A DNA stretch of 64,000 nt. Origin: Rahnella laticis. GTDB lineage: Bacteria; Pseudomonadota; Gammaproteobacteria; Enterobacterales; Enterobacteriaceae. The position numbers and the translations under genes are program-made. This document shows positions 628 through 43,760 of this stretch, one piece after another. The first letter of the stretch is position 1. Every line of letters begins with the position of its first letter. The stretch lies in NCBI RefSeq assembly GCF_015644585.1, contig NZ_JADOBI010000001.1, forward strand, positions 1 to 64,000, in the 5' to 3' direction. The notes beneath the pieces are model-generated. The model saw only the letters and a program-made list of their open reading frames with translations, had not been told where the DNA came from and did not search any database.

Positions 628-818
628 AAAACAAGATACAAGGCTCTAGCACCGAGAGAAGGCACCGCGCAGCGGCAGGGTTTTGCGCCACGCGCCCAAG
701 CCTCAGAACATGTCCATCGGCCCAGCGACAGCGCGTAGTGATAAAACGCGGGAGTCCAGAGGGAGAAGGTTTATTCTCCCTCTGGTCGGTGTGGGCCGAT
801 GCCCACGACCTTGATTTT
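628..818 (+). repeat. Dispersed two-hairpin repeat, copy A
   Basis: This stretch shares a core with 43575-43760 (same strand) and, less closely, with 43200-43390 (opposite strand). The shared words include GAAGGCACCGCG, AGAACATGTCCATCG and CCAGCGA. The core is followed by a perfect 12-bp hairpin (756-767 with 774-785, loop GGTTTA) and, 5 bases later, a second hairpin (791-796 with 801-806). The stems differ in sequence from those of the other copies but keep the pairing. No protein is likely here. Confidence 0.75.
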
Positions 819-855
819 GAATTAGAATTTAAACCGGAAGCCAGTCAGCAGCCCG

Positions 856-1116
856 CTAAAATTCAACTTCAATATCCCCCACCGGCAGGCAGCAGCAGGG
901 AAGGACATCGCCTTCCGCCACAAACGCCAGGGGTTTCTCACTGTACTCAACCGTCCCGCGAACGAGCTTCATGCGACATGATCCGCAATAACCTTCCCGG
1001 CACTGGTATTCCACTTCAACCTGATGATGCTCAAACACTTCCAGCAAATTCCGGTGGCCGGATTTGCAGGCCAGTTGCTGGCCGGTTGCTGAAAGTGTGA
1101 TCGTCCTGTCCGTCAT
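856..1116 (-). CDS. yfaE: YfaE, 2Fe-2S ferredoxin for ribonucleotide reductase cofactor maintenance
   Basis: This 86-residue plant-type ferredoxin has the cluster motif C39-x4-C44-x2-C47 (YQCREGYCGSC) and a further cysteine run at 74-76 that supplies the fourth ligand. YfaE donates electrons to rebuild and maintain the diferric-tyrosyl radical of the class Ia reductase small subunit NrdB. The start codon lies directly after the nrdB stop with no gap, so it is the third gene of a nrdA-nrdB-yfaE operon, as in E. coli. Length and position agree with the family. Confidence 0.95.
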   Translation of the reverse strand: MTDRTITLSATGQQLACKSGHRNLLEVFEHHQVEVEYQCREGYCGSCRMKLVRGTVEYSEKPLAFVAEGDVLPCCCLPVGDIEVEF

Positions 1117-2247
1117 TTAAAGCTCGAAATCACTCAAATCGTCGGCGTGAACTTCAGAGTCAATCTGGCCGACCAGATAGGAGCTGACTTCCACTTCCTG
1201 CGGCGCAACCTGCACGTTGTCAGAAACCAGCCACGCGTTGATCCATGGGATCGGGTTAGAGCGGGTTTTGAACGGTGCGCTCAGGCCCACGGCCTGCATG
1301 CGGATGTTGGTGATGTATTCCACGTACTGGCACAAAATGTCTTTGTTCAAACCAATCATGGAACCGTCTTTGAACAGATATTCCGCCCAGTCTTTTTCCT
1401 GTTGCGCAGCCAGTACGAACAGGTCATGGCATTCCTGCTCACACTCTTTGGCGATTTCCACCATTTCCGGGTCGTCCTGACCTGAACGCAGCAGGTTCAG
1501 GGCGTGCTGAGTGCCGGTCAGATGCAGCGCTTCGTCGCGGGCGATCATCTTGATGATTTTCGCATTCCCTTCCATCAGTTCGCGCTCAGCAAAGGCAAAC
1601 GAACAGGCGAAGCTGACGTAGAAACGCACGGCTTCCAGCGCGTTAACGCTCATCAGGCAGATGTAGAGTTTCTTCTTCAGTTCACGCAGGTTTACCACCA
1701 CGGTTTTGCCATTCACCTGATGTGTGCCTTCGCCCAGCAGGTGATAGTAACTGGTCATTTCGATCAGCGTGTCGTAGTAACCGGAGATGTCTTTCGCGCG
1801 CTTGAGGATTTCTTCGTTGGTCACGATATCGTCAAACACAATCGCCGGATCGTTCACGATGTTACGGATGATGTGCGTGTAAGAACGAGAGTGAATCGTT
1901 TCTGAAAACGCCCAGGTTTCGACCCAGGTTTCCAGCTCTGGAATGGAAATCAGCGGTAACAGCGCAACGTTCGGGCTGCGTCCCTGAATGGAATCGAGCA
2001 GAGTCTGGTATTTCAGGTTGCTCAGGAAGATGTGTTTTTCGTGATCCGGCAAGGCCTGAAAATCGATACGGTCGCGGGAAACATCAATCTCTTCAGGGCG
2101 CCAGAAGAAGGACAGCTGCTTTTCGATCAGCTTCTCAAAGATCTCATGTTTCTGCTGGTCGAAACGGGCAACGTTGACTGACTGGCCGAAAAACATCGGT
2201 TCCAGCAATTGGTTATTTTTGTTCTGAGAGAAAGTGCTATAAGCCAT
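1117..2247 (-). CDS. nrdB: Ribonucleotide-diphosphate reductase class Ia, beta subunit NrdB
   Basis: This 376-residue R2 subunit houses the diiron-tyrosyl radical used to start reduction of ribonucleotides to deoxyribonucleotides. Iron ligands and radical tyrosine are visible: D85, E116, H119 and Y123 in [10 protein letters not shown], and E and H in ARDEALHLT. The acidic C-terminal tail (DDLSDFEL), which docks on NrdA, is present. An in-frame ATG 15 bases upstream exists, but I chose 2247 because the protein then starts MAYSTFSQ like E. coli NrdB, with GAGGA 4 bases before it. It lies between nrdA and yfaE. Confidence 0.97.
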
Positions 2248-2261
2248 ATTGTCCTCGGACA

Positions 2262-2283
2262 AAAGCCCCGTTTAAGGGGCTTT
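2262..2283 (-). terminator. Hairpin between nrdA and nrdB
   Basis: An 8-bp perfect stem AAAGCCCC/GGGGCTTT with a six-base loop lies in the 64-base nrdA-nrdB gap. There is only a short T run, so it may attenuate or stabilise the nrdA message rather than end transcription. Confidence 0.5.
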
Positions 2284-2311
2284 ATTTAAAATGATAAATC
2301 AAAACAGACGA

Positions 2312-4594: not shown

Positions 4595-4659
4595 TCGGGG
4601 TGATACCTCAAAGGTTTATACAGTGCCTGACCTGGCCGTGAAAACACGCGCGACAGCAC

Positions 4660-4707
4660 AAAGAGTCCCTTGTGTGCTGGTCAGGATATAAACACAATAT
4701 ATTGTGG
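4660..4707 (-). promoter_or_regulatory. Pair of NrdR boxes before nrdA
   Basis: The 16-mer at 4692-4707 holds the perfect palindrome CACAATATATTGTG, an essentially consensus NrdR box. A weaker box lies at 4660-4675 (ends in TTGTGT, about 10 of 16 consensus positions). The two centres are 32 bp apart, about three helical turns, which matches the paired-box layout of known nrd promoters. NrdR represses ribonucleotide reductase genes when dATP is high. In the remaining nrdA-ubiG gap up to 5049 I see only the DnaA box. Confidence 0.85.
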
Positions 4708-4776
4708 GTTTGTTATTTTCTGATGACAAGATAGTGACTGAATGGCCCTTTTGCAAGTGAACAAAATGGCCTGTTT

Positions 4777-4785
4777 TGTGGATAA
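4777..4785 (-). promoter_or_regulatory. DnaA box upstream of nrdA
   Basis: TGTGGATAA is the exact complement of the high-affinity DnaA site TTATCCACA. It lies about 185 bases before the nrdA start. DnaA control of nrdAB is known in E. coli, so a regulatory role is likely. Confidence 0.7.
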
Positions 4786-5073: not shown

Positions 5074-5097
5074 TGACGTGGAGGTGATTTCGCGCAC

Positions 5098-18907: not shown

Positions 18908-18913
18908 AAAAGC

Positions 18914-30300: not shown

Positions 30301-33300
30301 GGCCCGCAAACGGTTCTGGTCACGGCAACCGACAGCGTCGGCAACGTGGGCACCGTCAGCAGTGCAATCACAGTCGATTACACGTTGCCAACGCTGAGCT
30401 TTAACCCGGTGGCGACGGATAACATCATCAATGCCGCCGAAGCGCTGCAACCGGTGGTGATCAGCGGAACGTCCGATCTGCCGGATGCCGGCCAGACGGT
30501 TTCTGTCGTGCTAAGCTTCAACGGCGTGACTTACAACGCCGTTGTCCAGCCGGATGGCAACTGGAGCTTCACGCTGCCAAGTGGTGTGGTGCAGGCACTG
30601 ACGGATACTACCTACACGCTGACGGCAACCATCACCGATGCGGCCGGGAACGTCACAACCGGAACTCATACCTTCAGCGTCGATGCGTCTGCGGCTAATT
30701 TGCCAACGCTGACCATTACCGCAGTTTCCACCGATGATTACATCAACGCTATCGAGAAAGGGAATGATGTCCCGATCACCGGGACCACCACGCATGTTGA
30801 AGCAGGTCAGATTGTCTCGGTAGTGTTTAATGGAACCATCTACACCGCTATCGTACAGCCAAACGGAAGCTGGGAGGCGAGTGTACCGGCGGCAGATCTG
30901 GTCGGATTGTCCGACGGGCCGCTGACGGTTACGGCGTCCGTGACTGACACAGCGCAGAACCCGGCGACGGCGTCGCACAATGCCACCGTGATTGCCCAGC
31001 CGGGTGATTTGCCAACGGTGACCATTAACGCGGTGTCCGGCGACGGCAACTTCAACATCATCGAACACAACCAGGCGACGACCATTACCGGGACGTCTAC
31101 CCATGTTCCTGTGGGCGGAATTATCACGCTGGTCATCACCGGTGAAGGTTATACCCACACGTATACCGCGACCGTGCAGGCCAATGGTAGCTGGAGTATT
31201 CCGCTGACGGCGGCGCAGGTGCAGGAATTGCCAGCGGGCAATAACATCTTCACCGTGACGGCGGATGACGTGGCGCAAAACGTGGCGACCGCGACGCAAA
31301 ACGTCACGGTAGACCTGATTGCTCCGACGCTGAGTGTCACGGTGAATACCGGCGGTGACGGTTACATCAATCTGGCTGAGGCCGTGGCAGGCCTTCCGCT
31401 TACCGGTCTGACGGACCCGAATCTGGTCGTCAAAATCACGCTTAACGGTAAGGATTACTTCAGCACGGCCAACGACTCCGGCGTGTGGACGCTGAATATT
31501 CCGGGCGTGGATCTTCAGGCCATCACCACGGACGGCAGCAAAACGGTCAGCGTCAGCGTCAGCGATACAGCCGGAAACACCGCCAGTAACTCGGCTAATT
31601 TCACGCTGGCAATCCATGCGCTGCCAGCGCTGACGCTGGGCGTTGTGGCCGGTGATGGCGTGCTTAATATCAGTGAAGCGGCTGCCGGGATCACTCTCAC
31701 CGGCACCAGCAGCGGGCTGGCACCGGGGTCGATCGTTCTGGTGACCATTCCGGGGCTGGCGACGCCGGTATCGGGGACGGTCAATCCGGACGGACTTGGC
31801 TGGACTGCAACCGTTGCGCCGGGCGCGCTCAGCGACCTGACAAGCGGCGTGGTGCAGGTCACCGTGACGGCGCAGGACGTGGCCGGTAATCCGGCGTCTT
31901 CCAGCGCCAGTCTGGATATCGAGCTGGGCGCACCGCCGGTTCCGACGATTAATACGCCGTTCACCGACGGCATTCTGAACGTCGCTGAAGCGGCAGCCAC
32001 TCAGCTGATTACCGGTACTACCGGCATTACCGGCCCGGGCCAAACCGTACTGGTGACCATTGACGGCACACCGGTGCTGGCAACGGTCGGCAATAACGGC
32101 GTCTGGACGGCCACCGTGCCTTCCGGCCTGTTGCAGGGGCTGGCGGATGCGACGCACACCATCAGCGTGACCACCACCGACAGCGCGGGCAATGTCAGCA
32201 CTGCCGGTACCCTTGATTTCACCGCACTGACGCATACCTTGCCGGTAGCTGGCATCAACACGCCATTTACCGACGGCATCCTGAACTTCGATGAAGCGTC
32301 TAATCCGCTGGGGCAGGTCATCACCGGCACCACCGGGATCACCAGCCCGGGCCAGACCGTTACCGTGGTCATCAACGGTAATGCTGTGCCGGTTGTGGTT
32401 GATGCAACGAACGGAACCTGGAGCGTTTCACTCACATCCGCCCAGCTGTTGTCCTTGCAGGATGGCACCTGGCCGGTGGTGGTGACCGTAACCGACAGCG
32501 CCGGAAACTCCTCAGTGCTGCCAGTTTCTGTCGGGGTGCAGATTCACTCCCTGCCTGCGCCGACCATCGATTTGCCATTTGGCGATGGTACGCTGAATAT
32601 TTCGGAAGCTTCAGTGCTTACCGGTGGGCAGACAATTACGGGGACAACTGGTGTCATCGGTGCCGGGCAGACGGTCAGTGTGGCTATTGCTGGCATGACC
32701 GGAAGTCCGTTTACGGCAACCGTAGATGAGACCACCGGGCTCTGGAGCCTGACCCTGACCCCGACTCAACTGGCAACGCTGGGGCTGGCTACGGCCTCCC
32801 ACGTGATTACCGTCACGGCAACGGATTCCGTCGGTAACCATACGGATGCAACGCTGAGCTTTACCTCACACCTTTCTGCACCAACCCCGAGCATCGACAC
32901 GCCATTTGGGGACGATATTCTCAGTATCAGCGAAGCGGCTGGCATCAATGTTATTACCGGGAATACTGGCATTACTGGTAATAACCAAAACGTGAAACTG
33001 ACGATTGACGTCGGCGGTACGACTTACACAGGAACCGTTGATCCGCTCACCGGTGTCTGGGCTGTCTCTCTACCTGCCGGTGTCCTCAGCTCGCTGGGCA
33101 ATGGCACCCACGATATCAATGTGACGGTCACGGATGCGGCGGGTAACAGCACATTGACAACCCTGCCGTTTACCAGTTTTGTGACGACGCCAAGCGTGAC
33201 GATTGATACGCCGTTCGTTGATGGGCATTTGAGTGCAACTGAAGCCGGAAGTACGCAGACACTGACCGGGACTACCGGGATCCTCGGTGCAGGGCAAACT

Positions 33301-36300
33301 ATTTCAGTCCTGATTGCAGGTCAGACGTTTACCAATGGCACGGTTGAAAGCACCGGGCACTGGTCCTTGTCGCTGGACTCTGCGGCCCTCGCCACTCTGG
33401 CGCAGGGCGCTCAGACCGTGGTGGTCACCGTAACGGATCCGGGCGGTAACTCAGGATCGGCCTCGGCTAGCGTCGGCATTGCGGTAACACTGTTGCCGAC
33501 GGTCGCCATAACGTCCTTTGCCGGAACCGGGTTCGACCTGACCTACGCCGAAAGTCTTAACCCACAAACCATTACCGGGACGACAAGCCACGTTGAGGCC
33601 GGGCAGAAAGTAACGGTCACGGTAGGCGGTATCAGCCATGAAGCCACGGTTCTGGCCGACGGCTCCTGGAGTGTGACACTAACATCAGCTGAGCTGAACA
33701 CATTAGCCGGCGCTACTGCTGTCAGTGCATCGGTTTCCGATGTGGCGGGTAACGCTGCGCCAACTGCCGTTGCGCCAATTACGGTTGACCTCAGCGTTCC
33801 TGCTACGCCTACTCTGACTATCGATCCGGTGACCGGTGATAACGTTATTAACGTGGCCGACGGCAATCCGGTGAATATCATTGTGTCCGGTAAAACGATT
33901 AGTGTTCCGGATAATACGGTCGTCACGGTCTTCGTCGGAGGAAATGAGCATACGGCAACCGTTACTGCCGGTGTCTGGACGTTAAGTGTGGCGGCCAGTG
34001 AGTTTGCGGATGGCGGCACGACAACGGTGACGGCGACAACGTCGAGCCCGGTAACCAGTGCCATACAAACGGTGCTGGTGGATATCACCACACCAACCGT
34101 CACCATCAACGCCTTTACAACTGACGATATCCTGAATAATACCGAGTCAAAATCGGCACAAACCATTTCAGGTACGGCAGACCTGTCGGATGTGGGCCGC
34201 GTGGTGACCGTCACGCTGAACGGTAAAACCTATAACGCTACGGTGTTATCAAATGTGACCACGGGCGTATGGTCGGTCAGCGTACCGGCTGCCGATTTGC
34301 AGGCATTACCGCAGACCGCGACAGGCGGAAACAACGTTATCACCGCAACCCTGACGGATGCGGCGGGTAACACCGGCAGTGCGGTACCGCATCCGATTAC
34401 AGTTGATACCGCACCACCGCTGCTGGGTATTGATGCGGTGGCTGGCAACAACGTTCTCAATCTGGTGCAGGCGCTGGGTACGGTCTTACTGAGCGGAACA
34501 TCCTCGGGTGCTGACGGGCAAACCGTCACCTTGACGTTGGGCGGCAGTCCGCTGGCCACAGCGGTTATTCAGCCGGGCGGCCTGTGGTCGGTTAACCTGA
34601 CGCCGGGGCAACTGAGTTTGCTCAATGACGGCACACTGACGCTGGCCGCGACGGTCACGGATGCTGCGGGTAACACCACTTCCGTCAGCACCGGGCTGAA
34701 TATCTTCTTCAACCATCTGCTGGATCTGACCCTGACCAGTGGTCTGGGGCTGACCGACGGCTACCTGAACCTGGCGGAATCTCAGGTTGCGCAGGTGCTT
34801 AGCGGAACAGCCATCGGGGCCGGAGTAGGCTCCATTATCACCACCACCATTGCCGGAACACCACTGTCTGCAGTCGTCGGTGCTAACGGCTTGTGGTCAA
34901 TGGTGATACCGGCGGGCGTTCTCGGCGCGCTGACGAGTGGTGCCAAGGTCATCGATCTGACCATTACCGACTCAGCAGGCAATTTAAAACTTGAAACGCT
35001 GAACCTTGATGTCGTCAAAACGGTTCCTGTGCTGGGCGCGCTGAATCCTATCTTCGGCGGCAACAGCCTGCTCAATGCGCTTGAATCTGGGGTTGCTCAG
35101 GCCATTGGCGGGGTGGCAACGGCGGTGGACGGCACGGCAGTGACCGTGACGCTCGGCGGTAAAACATACAACACCACCGTGACGGCGGGTGCCTGGAACA
35201 TCAATATTCAACCGGGGGATTTGGCGTTACTGACGGACGGGAATCTGAGTCTGGGGATTACCCTGACCGATGTGGCGGGCAACTCCACCAGCACCAATAT
35301 TCCGGTGGGCATTGCAATCCACAACCTGCCAACCGTCGTGCTTAACACAGTGTTTGGCGACGGCGTGCTCAATATCGCCGACTTGCTGGTCAGTCAGACG
35401 ATCAGCGGGACCGTGTCGAACGTGGCAGCAGGAACGGCGATTGCGGTGCAGGTCGGTACACAGACGATTAATGGCGTGGTCGATGCGACGGGGCATTTCC
35501 TGGTCACCGTCACACCGGACATTCTCAGCACACTGGCTGGTACGACAGCGGCGGTGAGCGTCAGCGTCGTGGATGCGGCAGGTAACGTCGGCACTGCGGC
35601 GGCCAACGCCGTTCTCGACCTCGTCAGACCGGTCATTAACCTGACTTCTGTGCTCGGCGACGGGCTGCTCAGCGCGGCTGACGCCCTGACCACGCAGGTG
35701 ATTGGCGGGACGATCGGTGGCGTGGCGACCGGCACGCAGGTTCAGGTGACGCTCGGCGGAAAAACCTTCCTCGGCGTGACCGACAACACCGGTGCCTTCA
35801 GCATCACCCTGCAACCGGGTGACCTGAAAGCGCTGGGCGACGGCACCTTTGTGGTCGGCGTTTCGGTCACGGACAGCGGTGGCAACACCACCACGGTCAA
35901 TGGTTCGCTGACGTCCATTGTCAACGCGATACCGAAAATCGTGCTGGATCCGATCTTTGGCGGTGACGGAATTCTCAACGCTGCCGAAGCGCTGCTCACG
36001 CAGACCATCAGCGGGACGGTCACAAACGGGCGCGTCGGTGAAACGGTCAATATCAACGTCGGCGGCGGTCTGTTCAATCTGACCGCAACAGTGGGCAGCG
36101 ACGGCAAGTTCTCCGCGTCACTCTCGCCGCTGCAACTGGCCGGATTGCTTGACGGTAATCTGACGATCGTCACCTCGGTGACCGATCCGGTGGGCAACAC
36201 CGCATCGAATACTGTCGGCATCAACGTCGGTATCCACAATCTGCCATCGATTGTTCTTAACCCAATCTTTGGTGATGGCGTGCTTAACGTCGTTGACCTG

Positions 36301-38169
36301 CTGACGGGTCAGACCATCAGCGGTGTCGCCAGCAACGTGGCGGTGGGAACTCAGGTACAGATTAGCCTCAACGGTAAAAACTACGTGGCAACAACCGGTA
36401 CCGGCGGCGTATTCAGCGTCACCGTTCCGGTGGTGGATCTGAAGACCATTCTCAATGGCTCGCCAAACGTGGTCGCCAGCCTGACGGATGCCACCGGCAA
36501 CCCGGCGTCGGTGACCAGTGTACTGAGCGTGGTCGCGCAGTCTCTGCCAACCATTACCCTCAATCCGCTGTTTGGCGATGGCCTGCTCAACGCCGCCGAT
36601 GCGCTGCTCACCCAGACCATCAGCGGGACCACCACGAACGCGCAGGGTTCGACCGTCAGCATCAATGTCGGCGGTAACATCCTGACCGCGCTGGTGAAAG
36701 CCGACGGCACCTTTAGTGTCGCGATCCCGCAACTGACGCTTTCGAGCCTGCTCGACGGTACGCTGAACGTGGGCGCATCTGTCACTAACGCCGCCGGTAA
36801 TGCGGTGAGCGGCAACGCAACGGCGACGGTGGGGATTCATACGCTGCCATCGCTGGTGGTCAACACGCTGTTTGGTGGCGACCATTATCTGAATGCGGCG
36901 GAAGCGGGCGCAAACACCAACATTACCGGGACGTCCAACCTGGCGAACGGCACGGTGAGCGTAACCGTCGGGACGGTGACGCATACCGGCACCATCACTA
37001 ACGGCGTCTGGAGCGTGCCGTTTACCTCCGCAGAACTCAAAGGGCTGGCCGACGGTTCGACGCAGGTTTCCGTGGTGGTTACGGATGCGGTGGGCAACAT
37101 TGCGACCTCCTCGAATCTGCTGACCGTGCTGACCCATGAACTGCCACTGGTGGCGCTCAATCCGTTACTCGGCCTGACCCTTGGCGTGGTGGGCGGTATT
37201 CTTGGCGGGCAGGGGCTGACGCTGAGCGGGACCAGCCGCAACATCGCACAAGGCGGTCTGGTCAGCGTGACCTTGCTGGGGAATACGCTGGCGGGCACCG
37301 TTCAGTCCGATGGTTCATGGACCGTTAAGTTCAGCAGCGCATTGCTGAGCAGTTACGGACTGACCGGGTTGCTGGCGGCATTACTTGGCGCGGTTGTTGA
37401 GCTTAAAGCCGTCGATGTGGCAGGTAATGGTTTTGATGCGCACGTCGGGCTGACCGTTGGTTCAACGTTGCCTGCTGACACCCAGACGCTCGCCGTTCAG
37501 TCCCTGGCAGTCGAGGACACCCATACGCTGGCAGCGGTTCACACCACCGATACCAGCAGTTCAACCACAGACACCACCACCCACACCACCAGTACGCTGA
37601 CCGATCCGCTGGTCACGGCGGACACCAGTTCGTCTGCCGCCAGCACCTCGACCAGTACAACGTCGGAAACCACATCTCATGCGGACACGGCGTTCTCAAT
37701 TGGCGGCGTCACCATCGACCTGACGGCAACGGACGGCGTGGCGATCGGCGGCTCCGGTAACGACACCATTTCGGTTCATACCCTTGATTTCTCGCAAATC
37801 GACGGCGGAACCGGTGTCGATACCTTGCTGCTGGCGGGCACCAACCAGCATCTGGATCTGACCCTGCTCGGGCTGAAAGTTGAACATATCGACATCTTCG
37901 ATTTGGGCACTTCCGGCACCAACAGCATCTCGCTGAATCTGCACGAGGCGCTGAACGTGAAGGACAACCCGACGGATGAAGTGATCATCAAAGGGGGCGA
38001 AGGCAGCCTGGTGAACCTGCAAATGGGCACCGACGGCGCGTGGGCTGAAACCGGGCAACGCACGGTGGATGGCCTGACCTTCGACGTTTACCACAATGCT
38101 TCACTGGATGCATCCAACACGTTGGGAGACGTACTGGTGCAACACGGTTTACACGTTCAGCAAAACTAG
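24340..38169 (+). CDS. Giant BapA-like repeat adhesin, type I secreted
   Basis: This 4609-residue surface protein probably acts in biofilm formation or attachment. Residues 1-130 form a BapA-prefix-like beta region. A hydrophobic helix follows (about 132-151) and ends in IAAG and a Gly/Asn-rich linker (to about 200). I count 41 Ig-like repeats of about 100 residues, each opening with a variant of NPxxGDGxLNxAEA...TLTGT, to about residue 4373. A Thr/Ser-rich linker comes next, then one RTX-like GGSGNDTIS (about 4470) and a T1SS C-terminal targeting domain. I noticed no cysteine. The next three genes encode its exporter, the layout of Salmonella bapABCD. Confidence 0.93.
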   Translation: MAQNGSVVIDVLSRKNGAVISQVSSASQDVTLNQASIIRIHGTRDAVSSYERVGNDLVIHMKDGSTVRYHSFFNTEGAEDSVLVFDDGVHPIEHAAFVDTGATAGAVPIVPAYQTIPDIGVLLEDSSNFSPGVLAAVLGVVALGAGIAIAAGGGGGGGGGSSSNNGGSDGGNNGGNNGGNNGGNNGGNGGNNGGGTVGSGQPATLSLGAFAGDNILNAAESRIAQIFSGTAGNVTAGQTITLSINGKSYTSTVGADGKWNINLPSLDLQNLADGTYVVSVTVTGTDGQSVTKGVTVVVDTTPPVLTVNPVDGDNVIDAIEHQQPLVVSGTASVSEAGRTVDVVLNGVHYSATVTSEGTWSVTIPANVVSALAEGNYTLTTSLTDAAGNSTTTPESFVINDSAGILTVNPISGDGQLNATEAQSALVITGTTSNVAAGTQITVVLGGVTYHTTTNADGGWSLSVPSTALQALTDGETTLTVSLVDAQGNTISQTADLNVAIHGVPPTLDPVFGGDNTLDGSESTATQTLTGNTGLKGDGQTVTVTIGGQQLTGTVDSDGSFTVSVPPSVLGTLPQGSNNITVTVTDTAGNHNTLTTPVSVDTIAPTLTVNPLEGDGYISVAEAAGAMTLTGTASVTEAGRPVVVTINGVDYPGAIVQPNGTWSVNIPAGSLSNLDQNVTVTATLTDAAGNSTTNTSTIHVASDPLLPPVITVNTFASDNILDGAERLTAQTISGTSTRVEEGQIVSITLNGHTYTATVGASGNWSVIIPAADVVVLGDGPQTITANVSDKAGNVAAPGTDQFNVDASRDGIAIDPVGGDNVINAVETADGILVTGTTLGVAPLAVVTVTFGGLVRLAIVQSDGRWSLALSQSDLQSLDPSTLIFTASVQAIDLTILSNSVSVGVDNLVPVPTLNTPFGDGYLNIAEAATAETLTGTTGKTGDGQIVTVTIGGHTYNATVDGNGAWSVSLPSADLQALPAGSNAIVVNVTDSAGNTATLNATTTVDLTAPALAINPVSGDGYVNISEAAADIAVTGTASIADAGRTVTVTLNGQTYTGVVGVNGQWSVTVPAGALAGVADGQYPLTAQLSDAAGNSTTVSANVQLATDPASAPTLTLNAFAGDNIVDGAEQRAAQTLSGTTTHVEAGQIVSILLNGITYTATVQANGSWSTSVPSSALTALANGTLQITATVLDKAGNPASGSEEITVNNLQSGLSVNPVTGDNQLNAFEAAAGVTISGTSVNVPVNGVVTITLNGKTYTATVGVGGAWSALVSASDLATLSDGPNTIRVSATDATGNPVSSTDVLNAIIHNLPAVTLNPPFGDGILNAAETGVSQTLTGNTGVSGGGQTVTVTLGGETYTATVGGDGSFTVTVPSTALSSLGQGATTIQVAASDAAGNTSNITVPVTVDTVAPTVSINPVAGDGTINAAEAGAVIAVTGTTGVTEVGQTVTVSIGGHTYTGVVAAGGAWTVNIPADALASVANGQYTLTASITDAAGNTGSTSTPVTIVADPALLPTITVNAFAGDNTLDGAERLTAQLISGTTSHVEAGQTVTITLGTHTYSATVLASGAWSVSVPAADLQELGNGPASINVSVSDKAGNPAAGSDAITVNSTLGGISIDTIAGDNNVNVAEAAAGITISGSASNVPIGAVVTVSLGGQNYPTTVIDAAGHWSVNIPSSAFAGLADGTSHVIATTVSTDLGTVTSTVDIGIYAHAPVPTINTPFGDGQLGTTEAAAAQTLTGTTGLTGDGQTVEVIIDGHTLTGTVASNGTWTVTVPAGTLTNATEGPTPIQVNVTDAGGNTGTTSGSVNIDFTPPTLTLANVAGDNVINAQELAGIITLSGQADAADAGQTVTLQFGGQTYQALVQPGGTWSFDVPAGTLTGTADGSYTLTATLKDLAGNTTTTTETYTVVAAHPPVPSLNTPFGDTFLNRNEADVAQTLTGTTGLLGAGQTVVVNIEGVNHPATVDANGVWTVTLSATDLQAISEGPQTVLVTATDSVGNVGTVSSAITVDYTLPTLSFNPVATDNIINAAEALQPVVISGTSDLPDAGQTVSVVLSFNGVTYNAVVQPDGNWSFTLPSGVVQALTDTTYTLTATITDAAGNVTTGTHTFSVDASAANLPTLTITAVSTDDYINAIEKGNDVPITGTTTHVEAGQIVSVVFNGTIYTAIVQPNGSWEASVPAADLVGLSDGPLTVTASVTDTAQNPATASHNATVIAQPGDLPTVTINAVSGDGNFNIIEHNQATTITGTSTHVPVGGIITLVITGEGYTHTYTATVQANGSWSIPLTAAQVQELPAGNNIFTVTADDVAQNVATATQNVTVDLIAPTLSVTVNTGGDGYINLAEAVAGLPLTGLTDPNLVVKITLNGKDYFSTANDSGVWTLNIPGVDLQAITTDGSKTVSVSVSDTAGNTASNSANFTLAIHALPALTLGVVAGDGVLNISEAAAGITLTGTSSGLAPGSIVLVTIPGLATPVSGTVNPDGLGWTATVAPGALSDLTSGVVQVTVTAQDVAGNPASSSASLDIELGAPPVPTINTPFTDGILNVAEAAATQLITGTTGITGPGQTVLVTIDGTPVLATVGNNGVWTATVPSGLLQGLADATHTISVTTTDSAGNVSTAGTLDFTALTHTLPVAGINTPFTDGILNFDEASNPLGQVITGTTGITSPGQTVTVVINGNAVPVVVDATNGTWSVSLTSAQLLSLQDGTWPVVVTVTDSAGNSSVLPVSVGVQIHSLPAPTIDLPFGDGTLNISEASVLTGGQTITGTTGVIGAGQTVSVAIAGMTGSPFTATVDETTGLWSLTLTPTQLATLGLATASHVITVTATDSVGNHTDATLSFTSHLSAPTPSIDTPFGDDILSISEAAGINVITGNTGITGNNQNVKLTIDVGGTTYTGTVDPLTGVWAVSLPAGVLSSLGNGTHDINVTVTDAAGNSTLTTLPFTSFVTTPSVTIDTPFVDGHLSATEAGSTQTLTGTTGILGAGQTISVLIAGQTFTNGTVESTGHWSLSLDSAALATLAQGAQTVVVTVTDPGGNSGSASASVGIAVTLLPTVAITSFAGTGFDLTYAESLNPQTITGTTSHVEAGQKVTVTVGGISHEATVLADGSWSVTLTSAELNTLAGATAVSASVSDVAGNAAPTAVAPITVDLSVPATPTLTIDPVTGDNVINVADGNPVNIIVSGKTISVPDNTVVTVFVGGNEHTATVTAGVWTLSVAASEFADGGTTTVTATTSSPVTSAIQTVLVDITTPTVTINAFTTDDILNNTESKSAQTISGTADLSDVGRVVTVTLNGKTYNATVLSNVTTGVWSVSVPAADLQALPQTATGGNNVITATLTDAAGNTGSAVPHPITVDTAPPLLGIDAVAGNNVLNLVQALGTVLLSGTSSGADGQTVTLTLGGSPLATAVIQPGGLWSVNLTPGQLSLLNDGTLTLAATVTDAAGNTTSVSTGLNIFFNHLLDLTLTSGLGLTDGYLNLAESQVAQVLSGTAIGAGVGSIITTTIAGTPLSAVVGANGLWSMVIPAGVLGALTSGAKVIDLTITDSAGNLKLETLNLDVVKTVPVLGALNPIFGGNSLLNALESGVAQAIGGVATAVDGTAVTVTLGGKTYNTTVTAGAWNINIQPGDLALLTDGNLSLGITLTDVAGNSTSTNIPVGIAIHNLPTVVLNTVFGDGVLNIADLLVSQTISGTVSNVAAGTAIAVQVGTQTINGVVDATGHFLVTVTPDILSTLAGTTAAVSVSVVDAAGNVGTAAANAVLDLVRPVINLTSVLGDGLLSAADALTTQVIGGTIGGVATGTQVQVTLGGKTFLGVTDNTGAFSITLQPGDLKALGDGTFVVGVSVTDSGGNTTTVNGSLTSIVNAIPKIVLDPIFGGDGILNAAEALLTQTISGTVTNGRVGETVNINVGGGLFNLTATVGSDGKFSASLSPLQLAGLLDGNLTIVTSVTDPVGNTASNTVGINVGIHNLPSIVLNPIFGDGVLNVVDLLTGQTISGVASNVAVGTQVQISLNGKNYVATTGTGGVFSVTVPVVDLKTILNGSPNVVASLTDATGNPASVTSVLSVVAQSLPTITLNPLFGDGLLNAADALLTQTISGTTTNAQGSTVSINVGGNILTALVKADGTFSVAIPQLTLSSLLDGTLNVGASVTNAAGNAVSGNATATVGIHTLPSLVVNTLFGGDHYLNAAEAGANTNITGTSNLANGTVSVTVGTVTHTGTITNGVWSVPFTSAELKGLADGSTQVSVVVTDAVGNIATSSNLLTVLTHELPLVALNPLLGLTLGVVGGILGGQGLTLSGTSRNIAQGGLVSVTLLGNTLAGTVQSDGSWTVKFSSALLSSYGLTGLLAALLGAVVELKAVDVAGNGFDAHVGLTVGSTLPADTQTLAVQSLAVEDTHTLAAVHTTDTSSSTTDTTTHTTSTLTDPLVTADTSSSAASTSTSTTSETTSHADTAFSIGGVTIDLTATDGVAIGGSGNDTISVHTLDFSQIDGGTGVDTLLLAGTNQHLDLTLLGLKVEHIDIFDLGTSGTNSISLNLHEALNVKDNPTDEVIIKGGEGSLVNLQMGTDGAWAETGQRTVDGLTFDVYHNASLDASNTLGDVLVQHGLHVQQN
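26449..30087 (+). repeat. Three tandem four-domain super-repeats (about 1.2 kb each) within the adhesin
   Basis: Repeats 6-17 of the adhesin follow a fixed order of four subtypes: A (xxAFAGDNxLDGAE), B (xPVxGDNxxN), C (xTPFGDGxLN) and D (NPVxGDGxxN). The D subtype ends in a longer linker with DP (SDPLLPP, TDPASAP, ADPALLP). Block starts at about 26449, 27661 and 28871 are 1210-1212 bp apart. Repeats 4-5 and 18-19 look like partial units. This implies growth by duplication of four domains at a time. Confidence 0.8.
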
Positions 38170-38190
38170 TTGTCAATCGGAATGCGGTCT

Positions 38191-38293
38191 GCTCCCTCCC
38201 CTGCGAAGGGGAGGGTTGGGGTGGGGTATTAATGGCGACTCGGGCGTTGCCAGCCAAACCCCCTCCCAACCTCCCCCTTGGCAGGGGGAGGAG
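38191..38293. repeat. MITE-like palindromic intergenic repeat, copy 1
   Basis: The left arm (38191-38228) and right arm (38257-38293) are inverted repeats of each other of about 37 bp. Each arm can also fold on itself (CTCCCCTGCGAAGGGGAG). The same arms occur at 56362-56488 around a different centre. This copy starts 22 bases after the adhesin stop and separates it from its exporter genes, so it may stabilise the adhesin message or reduce downstream expression. Confidence 0.85.
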
Positions 38294-38332
38294 TTAAACC
38301 AAATCTATCGGCGTAATTAAGTGGTGTCGGTA

Positions 38333-39712
38333 ATGAAAAATAAGAAAGTGATACGGCCCGTGGCCGTCATCTTGGGCACCTTGTGTCTGACCGGGTTAAC
38401 AGGGAATTTCAATGTGGTTGTGGCGGCGGTTAAACAGCCGGAATTTAACTGGCAGGCGGCACCGACGGAAGAGATGCGCGCCAGTCTGACATTACGTGAT
38501 GCCATCTTGCGGGCGTTTGCGCGAAATCCACAAATCGCGGAAGCGGCGGCGCAAATCCGCGTGGGCGGCGGGAATCTCGATGCGGCGAAAAGTGCGTGGT
38601 ATCCGCAGGTTTCATTACAGGGGGCGGGTGGGAAATCCCGTCAGACGTATGCTTCGGGAGACCAGAGCAGCAACGGGTCGGCGGGCATTCAGCTCAGCCA
38701 GCTGCTGTGGGATTTCGGCAAAACCAACGGCAGTATCAGTGAGCAGGAGTATCTTTCGGACTCTTACCGGTTTTCACTTTACAGCACGATGACTGACGTG
38801 GCGCTCAGCACCATGCAGGCCTATCTGTCGGTCAAACGCTATCAGGCGCTGGTTCTGGCGTCTCAGGACAATATCGAATCGCTGACCCGCGTCAGGGATA
38901 CCGCCAAACTGCGCGCCGACGCCGGACTGAGTTCTCAGTCTGACGTCTTGCAGGCGGAAACCCGCATCGCCGGAATGCGGGCAACCGTCGAACAATACCG
39001 TGCGCAGGCGCGTTCCTCACAGGCGCAGCTGACCGTACTGACCGGTGTGGTATCAAACGACCTGCCGGACCTGCCTGAAAGTCTGCTCAATCAGAAAGTC
39101 ACTCTCGACAAAATCCCTTATGAAAACAGCACGCTGGTGCGCGCGGCGCAGGCCAAGCAGCAGGCAGCGATTGAGCAGGTCAATCAGGCTGAGGCGCAGC
39201 ACTGGCCGACGGTGAAAGTCCAGGCCGGGCGCACGCGTTATGACAATAACGGTGGCAGCGGTTCGTACTGGGACGATCAGCTCCAGCTGGCGGTGGATGC
39301 GCCGGTCTATCAGGGCGGCGCGGTCAGCGCCAAAGTTCGTGCGGCGGAAGGCCAGCGTCAGGCGGCGCAGGCGGATGTGGAAAAAGCCAAGCTGGATATC
39401 AACCAGAAAGCCTCCACCGCCTATGCCGACATGATCGGCGGCCAGCAGCGGCAGGTGGCGGGTGAGGAACAGTATTCCAGCGCCACGCATACCCGCAGCG
39501 TGTATCAGGACGAATACAAACTCAGCAAGCGCAGCCTGAACGATTTGCTCAGCGTCGAGCAGGACGTTTTTCAGGCCGACACCATGCGTATCGGCGCGCT
39601 GTATGACGGCTGGGACGCCACGGTGCGTTACGCCGCGGCGGTCGATAATCTGGTCGATATGCTGGGCATCGACCGCCAGAAACAATCCGGTGACACCCTC
39701 CCGGCGCTGTAA
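38333..39712 (+). CDS. TolC-family outer-membrane factor for type I secretion
   Basis: This 459-residue outer-membrane channel protein has a signal peptide (MKNKKVIRPVAVILGTLCLTG, likely cut after VVVAA). Two TolC-type repeats are rich in long helices. Family features include LRDAILRAFARNPQIAEA, DLPDLPESL and the late YKLSKRSLNDLLSVEQDV. An in-frame GTG at 38321 would add four residues; I prefer ATG 38333, which gives the cleaner signal peptide. It is the first of three exporter genes after the adhesin, comparable to bapB. It should form the outer exit of a tripartite exporter dedicated to the adhesin. Confidence 0.92.
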   Translation: MKNKKVIRPVAVILGTLCLTGLTGNFNVVVAAVKQPEFNWQAAPTEEMRASLTLRDAILRAFARNPQIAEAAAQIRVGGGNLDAAKSAWYPQVSLQGAGGKSRQTYASGDQSSNGSAGIQLSQLLWDFGKTNGSISEQEYLSDSYRFSLYSTMTDVALSTMQAYLSVKRYQALVLASQDNIESLTRVRDTAKLRADAGLSSQSDVLQAETRIAGMRATVEQYRAQARSSQAQLTVLTGVVSNDLPDLPESLLNQKVTLDKIPYENSTLVRAAQAKQQAAIEQVNQAEAQHWPTVKVQAGRTRYDNNGGSGSYWDDQLQLAVDAPVYQGGAVSAKVRAAEGQRQAAQADVEKAKLDINQKASTAYADMIGGQQRQVAGEEQYSSATHTRSVYQDEYKLSKRSLNDLLSVEQDVFQADTMRIGALYDGWDATVRYAAAVDNLVDMLGIDRQKQSGDTLPAL

Positions 39713-39760
39713 AAACAGAGCCGCCGGGAGAAGCCAGAAGCATTCGATAACGAGGTTGAA

Positions 39761-41938
39761 ATGAGCAATGAAGCAGCAACACCTTTGTCGATCGACGTCT
39801 GGATAAGCGCCATGGGGCGCGTGGCCGAAACATTCGGTAAGCCAGCAGATCCCCTTTTTCTTCGCCAGCAAATGCGCTGGTTCGAACATCAGCCGTTACG
39901 CCGTCAGCTTGATCGCCTGAGCGGCCTGATGGGTTTGCAAATTGGCATGGTCAGCTGGAATCAGGTGCGCTGGCGGCAGGAAGTTTTGCCTGCCGTTATT
40001 ACGCTGGAGCAGGGCGGTATCGCAGTACTTGAACAGCTGCATGATGACGGTAACGTCGATTACTGGCTGAGCGACGGCGGCGATTTACTGCGTTCGGCGG
40101 AACTGGTGACCTTGCTTGAACAAAGTACCGGCCCGGTCTTTCTCGTCGGTGTGGCGCCTCGCGGGCGCGATCAGCGTATCGACCAGTTTGTTCAGCCGCA
40201 TAAAAAACACTGGTTCTGGGAAAACTTCCGCGGTTCCGGGCGCAAAATTGCAGAAATCTCGCTGGCTTCCATTTTGGGTAACGTGCTGGCACTGGCGGGC
40301 ATCTTGTTCTCCATGCAGGTTTACGACCGGGTGATCCCGGCGCAATCTTTCCCGACGCTGTGGGTACTGTTCTTCGGCGTGGTGCTGGCGGCGGGGATGG
40401 AATACATCATCCGCCTGATGCGCACGCTGGTGTCGGATCTCATGGGCAAAAAGATTGACCTCAAGGTGTCATCGCTGTTTTTCGTGCGGGCGATGAGCAT
40501 CAAAAATGACGACCGGCCAAAATCCACCGGCTCCTTTATTTCCCAGCTGCGCGAAATCGATCAGGTGCGCGAACTGCTGACATCCACCACCGTAAGCGCC
40601 GCCGCCGATATGCCGTTTGTCCTGCTGTTTCTTGGCATCATGTTCTTCATTGGCGGCCCGCTGGTGATCATCCCGCTGCTGGCTATACCGCTGATTGTTA
40701 TCCCCGGCATTCTGATCCAGTGGCCGATGGCAAAACTGGCGAAAGAAGGCATGCGTGAAAGTGCGCTGCGCAACGCCGTGCTGGTGGAAACCATCGAAGG
40801 CATTGAGGACATCAAAGCCTTGCAGGCGGAAGCGTATTTCCAGCGTCAGTGGGAGCAGACTCATGAAGTCAGCGCTGCCGTGGGCATGAAGCAACGTTTG
40901 TGGGGCGCGCGCCTGACCGGCTGGGCATCGACGGTTCAGCAACTGACCTACGGCGGCATGCTGGTGTTCGGGGTCTATCTGGTGCTGAACGGCGATATCA
41001 CTACCGGTACGCTGGTCGCCAGCAGCATGCTTTCCTCGCGCACCATCGCGCCATTAATGCAGCTGACGATGGTGTTTTCCCGCTGGCAGCATGCGAAAAG
41101 CGCCATGCGCGGGCTGGATGAACTGCTGAAAAAACCGGTCGATCGTCCGGCTGATGCGGAACTGTCGCATTGCCCGACGCTGAGTGGCCATTTCAACGTG
41201 CGCAATCTGCAATATACCTACGACAAAGAGAATTCGCCGAACGTGCTCGGCATTGGTCAGTTGGAAATCAAACCCGGCGAACGCGTGGCGATTTTGGGCA
41301 AAGTCGGGGCGGGTAAATCGACGCTGCTGAAATTGCTTTCCGGCCAGGCCAGCCCGTCGCAGGGCAAAATTCTGATTGATGGCGTCGACATGACCAAAGT
41401 CGAACCGGCGGATATCCGCCGCCAGATTGGTTATCTGTCCCAGGATTCGCGGCTGTTCTTCGGCACATTGCGCCAGAACCTGATGCTCGGTTACCCGCAT
41501 GCCACCGATCAGGAAATGCTACAGGCGCTGCGCATCAGCGGCGCGTTATCAATGGTGCAGGCCGATGCCTCCAGCCTCGATAAAATCATCAACGAAGGCG
41601 GGCGCGGATTGTCCGGCGGGCAACGTCAGATGGTGATGCTCAGCCGCATGATTTTACGAAATCCGCAGGTGGTGTTGCTCGATGAACCGACCGCGTCGAT
41701 GGATGAACAGCTTGAGGATTACGTGATCCGCCAGCTTCATGCCTGGCTGGTCGGACGCACGCTGATTGTGGTCACGCACCGTCCGGCGCTGCTCAAACTG
41801 GTCGACAGAATTGTGGTGATGGATAACGGACGGGTGGTCGCCGACGGGCCACGGGATCAAATTCTGGCAACTGCCGCCACCAACACACCGGCTCCGGCCG
41901 CGGCGGTGGTGGCTGAAACCAAACAGGGCGCAGCCTGA
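39761..41938 (+). CDS. Type I secretion ABC exporter (LapB/BapC-like)
   Basis: This 725-residue inner-membrane ABC transporter has an N-terminal C39-peptidase-like domain (about 1-145) without the catalytic cysteine, as in RTX-type exporters. The membrane domain follows (about 165-440), then the nucleotide-binding domain. Walker A is GKVGAGKST, the signature is LSGGQRQM, Walker B is VVLLDEPTAS and the H-loop is VVTHRP. It would drive export of the adhesin in one step across both membranes. It follows the outer-membrane factor after 48 bases. Confidence 0.95.
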   Translation: MSNEAATPLSIDVWISAMGRVAETFGKPADPLFLRQQMRWFEHQPLRRQLDRLSGLMGLQIGMVSWNQVRWRQEVLPAVITLEQGGIAVLEQLHDDGNVDYWLSDGGDLLRSAELVTLLEQSTGPVFLVGVAPRGRDQRIDQFVQPHKKHWFWENFRGSGRKIAEISLASILGNVLALAGILFSMQVYDRVIPAQSFPTLWVLFFGVVLAAGMEYIIRLMRTLVSDLMGKKIDLKVSSLFFVRAMSIKNDDRPKSTGSFISQLREIDQVRELLTSTTVSAAADMPFVLLFLGIMFFIGGPLVIIPLLAIPLIVIPGILIQWPMAKLAKEGMRESALRNAVLVETIEGIEDIKALQAEAYFQRQWEQTHEVSAAVGMKQRLWGARLTGWASTVQQLTYGGMLVFGVYLVLNGDITTGTLVASSMLSSRTIAPLMQLTMVFSRWQHAKSAMRGLDELLKKPVDRPADAELSHCPTLSGHFNVRNLQYTYDKENSPNVLGIGQLEIKPGERVAILGKVGAGKSTLLKLLSGQASPSQGKILIDGVDMTKVEPADIRRQIGYLSQDSRLFFGTLRQNLMLGYPHATDQEMLQALRISGALSMVQADASSLDKIINEGGRGLSGGQRQMVMLSRMILRNPQVVLLDEPTASMDEQLEDYVIRQLHAWLVGRTLIVVTHRPALLKLVDRIVVMDNGRVVADGPRDQILATAATNTPAPAAAVVAETKQGAA

Positions 41939-41955
41939 GCTGCTAAGGGTTCCGC

Positions 41956-43125
41956 ATGGCACACGTAACATTGAATGATGAGTTCGAAGCCGAAAGCCGG
42001 AAAGTGTCGTGGATTATCTGGGTGACGCTCGGCAGCCTGCTGGTCTTTTTCGTCTGGGCGCGTTTTGCCGTGCTGGATGAAGTGACGGTGGGTACTGGCA
42101 AAGTGACACCGTCGAGCAAAGCGCAGCAGATTGATTCTCTGGACGGCGGCGTAATTTTAAAACTGATGGTGCAGGAAGGCTCGGTCGTCAGCCGAGGCCA
42201 GCTTCTGGCCCAGCTCGACCCGACCCGTTCGCAATCAAACTACGGCGAAGCGGCGTCACGCGTCAGAACCCTTCGCGCGTCTTCTGAGCGTCTGAGCGCG
42301 GAACTGACCGGCGCACCGCTGAAATTCAGCCCGGAAACCATGAAATCCCCGGAACTGGTGGCACGCGAACGTCAGCTTTATTTATCGCGTAAGCAGAACC
42401 GTGATGAGACGGTGACCAACCTGAACCAGTCCCTCAAACTGGTGAATGACGAAATCAACATGACCCAGCCGCTGGTCGCCAAAGGTGCGGCGGGGCAGGT
42501 GGAAGTTATCCGCCTGAAACGTCAGGCCAGCGAACTGCGCGGCAAAATCGACGATGCGACTAACCAGTACGCGGTGCGTGCGCGTGAGGAGCAGGTTAAA
42601 AACAACGCCGATCTGGATGCAGAGTTGCAGGTCATGGCGGGTAAAGAAGATCAGGTCACGCGTTCCGAGCTGTATTCGCCGGTTCACGGCATCGTAAAAG
42701 ACATTCAGGTCTCCACCGTTGGCGGCGTGCTCCAGCCCGGCGGCAAACTGATGGAAATCGTCCCGATTGAAGACCAGTTGCTGATCGAAACGCGCATCAA
42801 CCCGCGTGACATTGCCTACATCCGGCCAGGATTACCGGCCACGGTAAAAATCTCAGCCTATGACTCGTCGATTTATGGCGATCTCGAAGGAAAAGTCGAA
42901 GGCGTTTCGCCGGACACCTTGCAGGATGAAGTGAAGCGCGACCAGTATTACTACCGGGTTTACGTCCGGACGGACAAAGCGTTCCTGACCAACAAAGCCG
43001 GGCGCCAGTTCCCGATTGTGCCGGGCATGGTGGCGAACGTGGATATCAAGACCGGGCAGAAAAGTGTTCTGGATTACCTGATTAAGCCATTGAATAAAGT
43101 GAAGGAGTCGTTGAGGGAGCGGTAA
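41956..43125 (+). CDS. HlyD-family periplasmic adaptor for type I secretion
   Basis: This 389-residue membrane fusion protein has a short cytoplasmic N-terminus, one membrane segment (about 20-38), and lipoyl/barrel halves around a coiled-coil (about 95-220). The HlyD signature region is SPVHGIVKDIQVSTVGGVLQPGG. It bridges the ABC exporter and the outer-membrane factor. It starts 17 bases after the ABC gene and closes the operon. No lapD/lapG-type cyclic-di-GMP release genes are nearby. Confidence 0.95.
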   Translation: MAHVTLNDEFEAESRKVSWIIWVTLGSLLVFFVWARFAVLDEVTVGTGKVTPSSKAQQIDSLDGGVILKLMVQEGSVVSRGQLLAQLDPTRSQSNYGEAASRVRTLRASSERLSAELTGAPLKFSPETMKSPELVARERQLYLSRKQNRDETVTNLNQSLKLVNDEINMTQPLVAKGAAGQVEVIRLKRQASELRGKIDDATNQYAVRAREEQVKNNADLDAELQVMAGKEDQVTRSELYSPVHGIVKDIQVSTVGGVLQPGGKLMEIVPIEDQLLIETRINPRDIAYIRPGLPATVKISAYDSSIYGDLEGKVEGVSPDTLQDEVKRDQYYYRVYVRTDKAFLTNKAGRQFPIVPGMVANVDIKTGQKSVLDYLIKPLNKVKESLRER

Positions 43126-43128
43126 ATT

Positions 43129-43150
43129 AACAGGTAAGCCGCCTGTTTAT
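43129..43150 (+). terminator. Possible terminator of the adhesin exporter operon
   Basis: AACAGG/CCTGTT can pair across a seven-base loop just after the stop and is followed by a short T run. A second small palindrome (CCTGAAATTTCAGG) follows. The stem is weak, so confidence is moderate. Confidence 0.45.
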
Positions 43151-43199
43151 TCGGCTTTAAAAGCCTGAAATTTCAGGTTAAAGCCTTGGGGGGCCATCC

Positions 43200-43390
43200 T
43201 GACTGGCAAACCTTGGGCTCGCCGCCCAAACTGGCCCAAAGGGCGCGTTAACGCGCGCGCCCTCTGGACACCCGCGCTTTTTAACTGCGCGCTGCCGCTC
43301 GCTGGCTATGTTCCAGAAACTCCGGCTATTGCCGCAAACGCCGCCGCTGCGCGGTACTTTCGCTTCGGGTTCGAACCTGCTCGGAAAAGA
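43200..43390 (-). repeat. Dispersed two-hairpin repeat, copy B (inverted)
   Basis: Read on the minus strand, this matches copies A and C: TACCGCGCAGCGGC, then a 12-bp hairpin with one G-U pair (43256-43267 with 43236-43247). A second hairpin follows (43224-43229 with 43213-43218). It faces copy C, so the two make a large inverted repeat around a roughly 180-bp centre without a gene. Confidence 0.75.
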
Positions 43391-43574
43391 CTCTCGCTGT
43401 TTCTCACCTCTCACTCAACGTCGTTTTGAAAGCGGCCACTGGCTATGTAATTCAGAATGCTTTTTGAAATCGGCTGGAGGTTTATCTAAATTCAAAATCA
43501 GGCTGGTTTTAATCTTTTACAAAGGCAATCTGGCGCACTCAGAAATTTTGCTGACCGAGGGTTCGAGACCGCAA

Positions 43575-43760
43575 GGCTCGAAGCCCTCGAGGAAGGCACC
43601 GCGTAGCGGCAAGATTTCGCGCCACACGCCGATGTTCCAGAACATGTCCATCGACCCAGCGATAGCGCGCAGTTTAAGAGCCCGGGATTCTCAAGGGGCG
43701 CGGCGATAGGCGCTCCTTGAGGCCAGTTTGGGCGGCGAGCCCAAGGTCTTGCCCGTTTGG
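43575..43760 (+). repeat. Dispersed two-hairpin repeat, copy C
   Basis: This is close to copy A over the core (AAGGCACCGCGTAGCGGCA, AGAACATGTCCATCGACCCA). Hairpin 1 is 12 bp with one G-U pair (43690-43701 with 43710-43721), and hairpin 2 is 43728-43733 with 43739-43744. Hairpin 2 and its flanks (CCAGTTTGGGCGGCGAGCCC) are identical to copy B. No gene is supportable from 43126 to 43854. Confidence 0.78.

Follow-up and report, generated by a model that had tools for sequence, protein, structure and literature searches.

The first 64,000 nucleotides (nt) of contig NZ_JADOBI010000001.1 of Rahnella laticis (referred to here as the window) carry copies of an intergenic repeat with two hairpins. We interpret it as a genus-wide set of non-autonomous, non-coding dispersed elements built from inverted pairs of half-units, in which a protein would recognize the folded half-unit; our confidence in this interpretation is about even. 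The best reading of its kind is a mosaic element of the REPIN/BIME type, much larger and apparently without a RAYT. The copies are dispersed, pair in inverted orientation, covary in their hairpins with a definite strand polarity, lie beside gene 3′ ends, share half-element tracts between loci and are present or absent at given sites, all of which was observed directly. An earlier sequence-only reading of the window had suggested that it is possibly an RNA or a mobile structured element, and of these our evidence favors a dispersed modular DNA element whose fold on one strand matters. In bacteria, small palindromic repeats usually go with a RAYT or a parent insertion sequence (IS); this family is abundant and structured with no visible mobilizer, and its natural variation separates single-strand folding from a duplex cruciform.

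The window features of the repeat are as follows.

640..815, + strand: first copy, a half-element with arm, hairpin 1 and hairpin 2, outward to the right (model match 724-815, 71.9 bits)
756..785, + strand: its hairpin 1, CCAGAGGGAGAA/TTCTCCCTCTGG, 12/12 Watson-Crick pairs, arms 756-767/774-785 (fold of 757-818)
791..806, + strand: its hairpin 2, GTGGGC/GCCCAC (sequence and fold)
43165..43823, no strand: inverted-pair element, outer limits approximate (nested inverted repeats)
43204..43390, - strand: left half-unit, outward to the left (R1 model match 43204-43299, 89.8 bits)
43236..43267, - strand: left-half hairpin 1, read outward CCAGAGGGCGCG/CGCGCCCTTTGG, one G.U pair, arms 43236-43247/43256-43267
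43213..43229, - strand: left-half hairpin 2, TTGGGC/GCCCAA (sequence)
43575..43753, + strand: right half-unit, outward to the right (R1 model match 43658-43753, 100.6 bits)
43690..43721, + strand: right-half hairpin 1, CTCAAGGGGCGC/GCGCTCCTTGAG, one G.U pair, arms 43690-43701/43710-43721 (fold)
43728..43744, + strand: right-half hairpin 2, TTGGGC/GCCCAA (sequence)

The sequence-only reading had reported three intergenic copies sharing a core and both hairpins, and sequence and alignment bear this out. Hairpin 1 does have 12 pairs of differing sequence in each copy, perfect in the first and with 11 of 12 Watson-Crick pairs plus one G.U in the other two, and hairpin 2 of the first copy differs from that of the others on both sides. 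What had to be revised was the count and one boundary. The copies at 43200-43390 (-) and 43575-43760 (+) are real, but they are the two halves of one inverted-pair element, as indicated by arms (43210-43242/43715-43747) that are 94% complementary; the first copy is also real, but starts at about 640 and not at 628, the bases up to 639 being the end of an IS110-family element, and its partner half is absent from the contig. Genome-wide, the family reaches 122 half-unit matches. The modules of the complete element run in the order outer module, hairpin 2, hairpin 1, arm, centre, arm, hairpin 1, hairpin 2, outer module, and long imperfect inverted repeats are nested within it (43165-43209/43749-43793, 43168-43179/43810-43821, 43210-43242/43715-43747 and 43260-43299/43658-43697). 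A 23-nt core pattern, allowing up to 3 mismatches, has two matches in the window where 0.00 would be expected. Folding z-scores of hairpins 1 and 2 in the three copies were -5.2, -3.9 and -3.7 on the outward strand (the one read from the centre of the element toward its hairpins) and -7.9, -3.4 and -2.8 on the inward strand.

The 122 matches in the R. laticis genome were obtained at E ≤ 0.001 with a half-unit covariance model (R1) built from 34 sequences of the same genome, with 150 of 2701 first-look candidates scored. A follow-up search of 67 sources covering these places, which left out the overlapping L001, L023 and L027-L029 and all but one of L034-L063, gave 123 matches, 121 of them distinct. 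The half-unit matches group into 71 clusters, 48 of which contain both orientations, and all 48 are in (-,+) order, so that the hairpins point outward; 12 of the 23 single-orientation clusters are found within 760 nt of a contig end. The half-unit measures about 190 to 250 nt and the whole element roughly 500 to 650 nt. Outward, each half-unit ends in hairpin 1 and then either hairpin 2 or a different short module, and extra hairpin-2 modules and the outer module (GARAAACCGAAAYNTTCTCGRTC) stand in tandem at some element ends. The outer module (at most one mismatch) has 57 matches in the genome, all starting within 266 nt of a half-unit start. Nearly whole elements recur at separate loci (702 nt at 93.6% identity, 618 nt at 95.8%, and 537 nt at 94.4% and 92.9%). 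The other shared tracts, 51 of 55 (at least 92% identity over at least 120 nt), are no longer than 317 nt, which indicates that halves and smaller modules are exchanged between loci.

At two loci, L089 (2072-3443) and L101 (7903-9360), half-unit pairs stand 1.2 to 1.4 kb apart and enclose a PemK-like and a C92-peptidase-like gene; by eye, the PemK-like gene occupies the same place in the congener G156. Neither of these two genes is a transposase. The same two long-spaced elements hold short open reading frames (ORFs), but a coding role was set aside because variation in the length of hairpin 1 would break the frame (judged by eye, with no codon-level test). In Rahnella and elsewhere in other genera, the repeat is directly bordered by hexamer repeats such as (TTCAAC)n or (TTGAAG)n (flanks of L012, L067 and L293).

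Selection on the folded form, which the sequence-only reading had proposed, is strongly supported by covariation in 121 own-genome and 252 cross-species units and by the same hairpin layout in other genera. Among the 121 distinct own-genome units, every one of the 12 hairpin-1 pairs shows changes in both partners. Counting both hairpins, double-changed cells numbered 428 against 147.0 ± 13.2 after shuffling (0 of 500 shuffles as high), so that a lack of significant covariation was not what we found; the covariation score was 0.475 against 0.193, and structures slid along the alignment reached at most 175 double-changed cells, all these counts resting on an alignment fitted to the structure of the model. 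When 69 hairpins from several genera were aligned with MAFFT, there were 158 double-changed cells against 55.2 and the score was 0.505 against 0.241, with a slide of -1 close behind (149 and 0.408). The 252 distinct half-units from R. laticis and its relatives comprise 104 distinct stems, 57 of them perfect (9 of the 252 had no recognizable stem and were dropped from the stem count). The 5′ and 3′ arms of the same unit pair at 99.2% of positions and arms crossed between units at 71.8%, partly by construction, as the arms were picked as the best stem. In hairpin 2, all four combinations of the two covarying positions occur (seen in 133 of 252 units with a fixed pattern, which may have missed some mismatches). 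The hairpins thus stay paired across widely differing sequences, and it is the single strand in its folded form that appears to be selected. Folding 120 whole halves to a consensus yielded almost no structure on either strand, the alignment across subtypes being poor.

Matching changes on both arms can also arise if template switching during replication copies changes from one arm to the other, so that palindromes are maintained with no selection on the fold. The 57 perfect stems would fit this, as does L089, where hairpin 1 differs on both arms between R. laticis and G156 in similar surroundings. However, the most frequent stems retain standing G.U pairs, and neutral copying of this kind gives no reason why G.U should be kept and A.C removed on one strand in both halves. 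With no G+T skew in the arms (0.497) either, we regard it as improbable.

In duplex DNA, what reads as G.T on one strand reads as A.C on its complement. Scoring all mismatches alike, the 104 distinct stems contain 43 G.T, 2 A.C and 8 other non-Watson-Crick pairs on the outward strand; stems seen only once contribute 19 G.T, 2 A.C and 8 other (P = 2.2e-4 for 19 versus 2). A duplex cruciform cannot produce this pattern, which requires a fold of one strand (RNA or single-stranded DNA [ssDNA]) or a strand-biased mutation, and the arms show no skew that would point to the latter (G+T of 0.497 in 60 of the 120 halves). In the 37 units at 21 co-directional loci, the counts were 8 G.T and 0 A.C where the outward strand is sense to the neighboring genes (16 units) and 7 G.T and 0 A.C where it is antisense (21 units); being equal whichever way the flanking genes run, the polarity is a property of the half-unit itself. 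Outside Rahnella, the sole mismatch in genome G040 is A.C inward, that is, G.U outward, and the two mismatches within the repeat of genus g25 are T.G and G.T outward. Raw folding energy was lower for the outward-strand RNA in 112 of 120 halves, but dinucleotide-shuffle z-scores did not differ between strands (-2.52 versus -2.38 in 60 of the 120 halves), so that the claim of polarity depends on the pair counts, in which the stems share ancestry. These pair counts argue against a duplex cruciform and for a one-strand fold, whether RNA or ssDNA.

As for gene context, the elements are found on the downstream side of genes. The 71 clusters include 32 between convergent genes, 26 between co-directional genes, none between divergent genes and 13 at contig edges, compared with 29 convergent, 106 co-directional and 45 divergent comparison gaps (chi-square P = 7e-10). 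These gaps were of at least 80 nt and came from 400 kb of three congeners, element-bearing gaps included. The context genes were ORF calls and not curated annotations; the window element was called co-directional, yet an HTH_3 match makes its flanking genes convergent. A first ORF caller had given 35 convergent, 23 co-directional, 1 divergent and 12 unassigned clusters, the divergent case being the first copy of the window, where an ORF (738-1100, +) lies opposite a ferredoxin gene (856-1116, -).

This adjacency to gene 3′ ends, the G.U pairs with hardly any A.C on the outward strand and the lower energy of the outward-strand RNA are what a structured RNA would lead us to expect, and the main rival to the dispersed-element interpretation is that the repeat works as an RNA at the 3′ ends of genes. 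The halves would be transcribed outward or by read-through, and their hairpins would serve as a 3′-end protector, an RNase III or RNase E site or a protein ligand, to the benefit of the host. ERIC and Correia elements have been reported to affect transcripts via RNase E/III (passages of PMC10969869). Still, we judge this function to be rather unlikely here, as the shuffle z-scores do not differ between the strands, promoter-like sites at the window element are not above chance (1 versus 0.5 expected), the polarity is independent of the direction of the flanking genes and the content of the loci turns over between species.

Strong hairpins in excess between convergent genes might also act as a bidirectional intrinsic transcription terminator. 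In a first count, a gene's own terminator preceded the element at 8 of 74 adjacent gene ends, compared to 59 of 158 ends with no element, and a terminator-like pattern was found outward in 14 of 100 half-units versus 19 of 300 random stretches of comparable length. Once lengths were matched, the difference between gene ends was not significant (8/41 versus 51/161, P = 0.18), 86 of the 100 half-units have no such pattern and no stem followed by a T tract was found at hairpin 1 or 2 of the window pair. L004 and L089 have a terminator-like hairpin ahead of the element, and 26 of the 58 classified sites are co-directional. A terminator function is therefore not supported, and we consider it quite improbable.

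The sequence-only reading had called for occupied and empty sites to be compared, and we did so for six R. laticis elements against stretches of three congeners. Both flanks of five of them are present in G158, where four (L002, L004, L008 and L088) have no half-unit match; three of these four sites were read and the element is absent. Separately, these three sites carry a second, REP-like repeat (GCTCCCTCCCCTGCGAAGGGGAGGG...).

All 14 Rahnella genomes examined match R1, with 11 to 122 matches each. The 11 plasmid records matched are all Rahnella plasmids of 514 to 617 kb, with no annotated feature under the match, and the exact pattern of one subtype matched 28 named stretches, all Rahnella. 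Beyond the genus, the searches with the models R1 and R2 covered the GTDB family. R1 matched 6 of 149 genomes in an even draw (G040 only at E = 8e-4), while R2, a more general model of hairpin 1 made from 69 sequences of several genera, matched 17 of 392 genomes and 5 of 154 genera at E ≤ 1e-5; in this search, at most 14 candidates were scored per genome and its stricter filters lost weak matches. The same layout with another sequence is found in other genera, where a hairpin scan was positive in 10 of 12 loci (6/6 in G048, 3/5 in G115 and 1/1 in G040), several of these hairpins being flanked by AAAGCSCGGG and TCGGTT. The scan was also positive in two genomes of g25, at 20 of 20 loci. The window element had no match among phages or the 20,395 Escherichia coli records; no plasmid matched the G048 and G115 elements, and no phage that of G048. 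Related elements stand in tandem in G115 (L067 and L084), about 400 to 1200 nt apart. In the genus of G048, the arms of a related element (L066, 1600-2050) include several short hairpins with GGA in their loops, which resemble CsrA-type sites and are candidates for them.

A match to a known family such as ERIC or REP/BIME, the other outcome that would have told against the sequence-only reading, did not occur either. Rfam gave no match at gathering score over the whole window and none up to E = 5 over 43100-43900, a search that covered the second and third copies. The E. coli REP pair (RU-3) compared with six pieces of the element gave a best E of 9.8, at chance level, its best match in the window (E = 0.066) being outside the element. 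ERIC (RU-1) and YPAL (RU-2) showed no similarity to the element pieces above chance (best E of 3.6 and 4.9; RU-1 and RU-2 sequences taken from PMC2759123). No description of the Rahnella repeat was found among the matches listed in full-text searches of open-licence papers, and we call it a newly described repeat of the REPIN/BIME/MITE kind. BIMEs and the Rhizobium RIMEs are mosaics of palindromic modules, variable in order and number, next to gene 3′ ends. The Rahnella element is likewise a mosaic of modules beside gene 3′ ends, but it has a conserved inverted-pair scaffold and strand-polarized covariation in hairpin 1, with no similarity to the REP pair. ERIC and YPAL are intergenic multicopy enterobacterial repeats, as it is, and PMC2759123 and PMC10969869 call them MITE-like; however, at 127 and 168 bp they are several times shorter, and in the Rahnella element we found no defined end or target duplication.

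REPINs, or REP doublets, also come close. Passages of PMC3116915 describe them as two inverted hairpin units forming one dispersed entity, extragenic, with compensatory changes and tandem clusters, although their REP units are of 20 to 40 nt and the Rahnella half-unit has about 190 to 250 nt and at least two hairpins. The inverted pairs, extragenic placement, mosaic ends and compensatory changes might thus suggest that the repeat itself belongs to the REP/BIME/REPIN families and is moved by a RAYT transposase. A Y1_Tnp match is indeed present in 4 of the 14 Rahnella genomes, one with ten intact copies, but the element is in all 14, while 10 have no Y1_Tnp match and R. laticis itself has only a broken one. 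No unit was found in 11 Y1_Tnp loci searched out of 15, and the similarity to the REP pair does not exceed chance, which makes membership very improbable. Among the six genomes with a unit match, two had a Y1_Tnp match.

The interpretation as dispersed elements implies a mechanism in which the hairpins would be kept through recognition of the folded outward strand of each half-unit, as ssDNA or RNA, by a protein. This would probably be a mobilizing enzyme, most simply one acting on ssDNA as proposed for REPINs (in passages of PMC3116915), and in most hosts it is not a RAYT. Copies would be inserted or retained where they are harmless, beside gene 3′ ends, and recombination between copies would reshuffle halves and hairpin modules. 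An autonomous copy was sought via the outer motif, but none of its 57 matches, all beside half-units, pointed to a separate one.

Several observations weigh against such an element. Neither a mobilizing enzyme nor a clean terminal boundary was found, and four elements with both outer ends showed no target-site duplication by eye. As the outer end motif also occurs in tandem, it cannot be counted as a proven transposon end. No clear fold signal comes from the arm upstream of hairpin 1 by itself (z of -0.83 in 60 of the 120 halves). At the window site, both flanks could be aligned in 5 of 13 congeners, and at least one half-unit was present in all five: L150 and L151 have two, L148 and L149 have one, and L146 has one and a further weak match, and the hairpins differ. 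G156, the nearest relative (flanks about 95% identical), retains the left half and differs in the right half. L089 is occupied in both G156 and G158, with different content in G158. At such sites, occupied across species with different content, the elements look like long-standing residents that recombination has reshaped, not like actively jumping ones. L008 is a collapsed form of 140 nt in G157 and a fragment in G156, the two nearest relatives, making loss as possible as gain.

A more specific proposal, possible but doubtful in our view, is a self-spreading element whose replicative unit is the half-element as a folded single strand of fixed polarity. It would be a second, RAYT-independent route to the REPIN lifestyle, with an IS110-family element of the RNA-guided kind as its parasite. 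Its hairpin 1 would be free in sequence yet held to pairing, mostly with a purine-rich 5′ arm, and the dozens of resulting hairpin variants would recombine as cassettes between loci. Dozens of natural stem variants, together with related species differing at the same loci, make it directly testable why dispersed repeats keep their hairpins.

The IS110-family element at the start of the window has inserted into the first copy.

2..436, - strand: start of an IS110-family (DEDD) transposase, cut by the contig edge (PF01548, E = 1.9e-23)
437..639, no strand: non-coding end of the IS110-family element, inside the inner small hairpin of the first copy (comparison of four IS ends)

The window starts at base 1 of the contig, and the junction at 639/640 marks where the IS splits the repeat. 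This IS end occurs four times in the R. laticis genome and in none of 13 congeners, and all four junctions fall at the inner hairpin of the repeat (GAGACC..AAGGCTC). Four of nine other contig ends share a sequence joined to the inner hairpin, which we take to be the putative opposite end of the IS; a 34-residue piece of it gave no Pfam families. IS110 and IS1111 elements find their targets with the help of a non-coding RNA (PMC11208160, PMC11187229). The non-coding end of the IS contains AGGCTCGAA, also found at the target of other copies (AAGGCTCGAAG), and this may be a guide match. IS elements specific for REP sequences, with high target selectivity, are described in PMC1525189. The Rahnella case is similar in that a target-selective IS inserts in a repeat, although here it is an IS110-family element and the repeat is unrelated to REP. 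The repeat also offers a natural target set for an IS110-family element, and a guide RNA, if there is any, should match the inner hairpin.

The complete element of the window lies between two convergent genes.

41956..43125, + strand: left neighbor, HlyD-type type I secretion adaptor gene (TIGR01843, E = 3.2e-95)
43855..44268, - strand: right neighbor, HTH_3 gene (PF01381, E = 4.6e-07)

The end of the HlyD-type gene is separated by 79 nt from the match to the left half-unit. The region 24340-43125 encodes a BapA-like adhesin of 4609 amino acids that has Ig-like repeats; the genes after it are OEP/TolC-like, type I secretion ABC and HlyD genes. Between 10275 and 15969, the window contains an RHS protein with a PAAR-like domain and then a second RHS fragment; the two have a 300-nt stretch in common at 89% identity (13343-13642/15321-15620), which resembles a displaced RHS tip cassette. 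The second dispersed repeat (GCTCCCTCCCCTGCGAAGGGGAGGG...), REP-like and in inverted pairs, was also found in the window at 38184-38241, 56355-56412 and 56444-56491.

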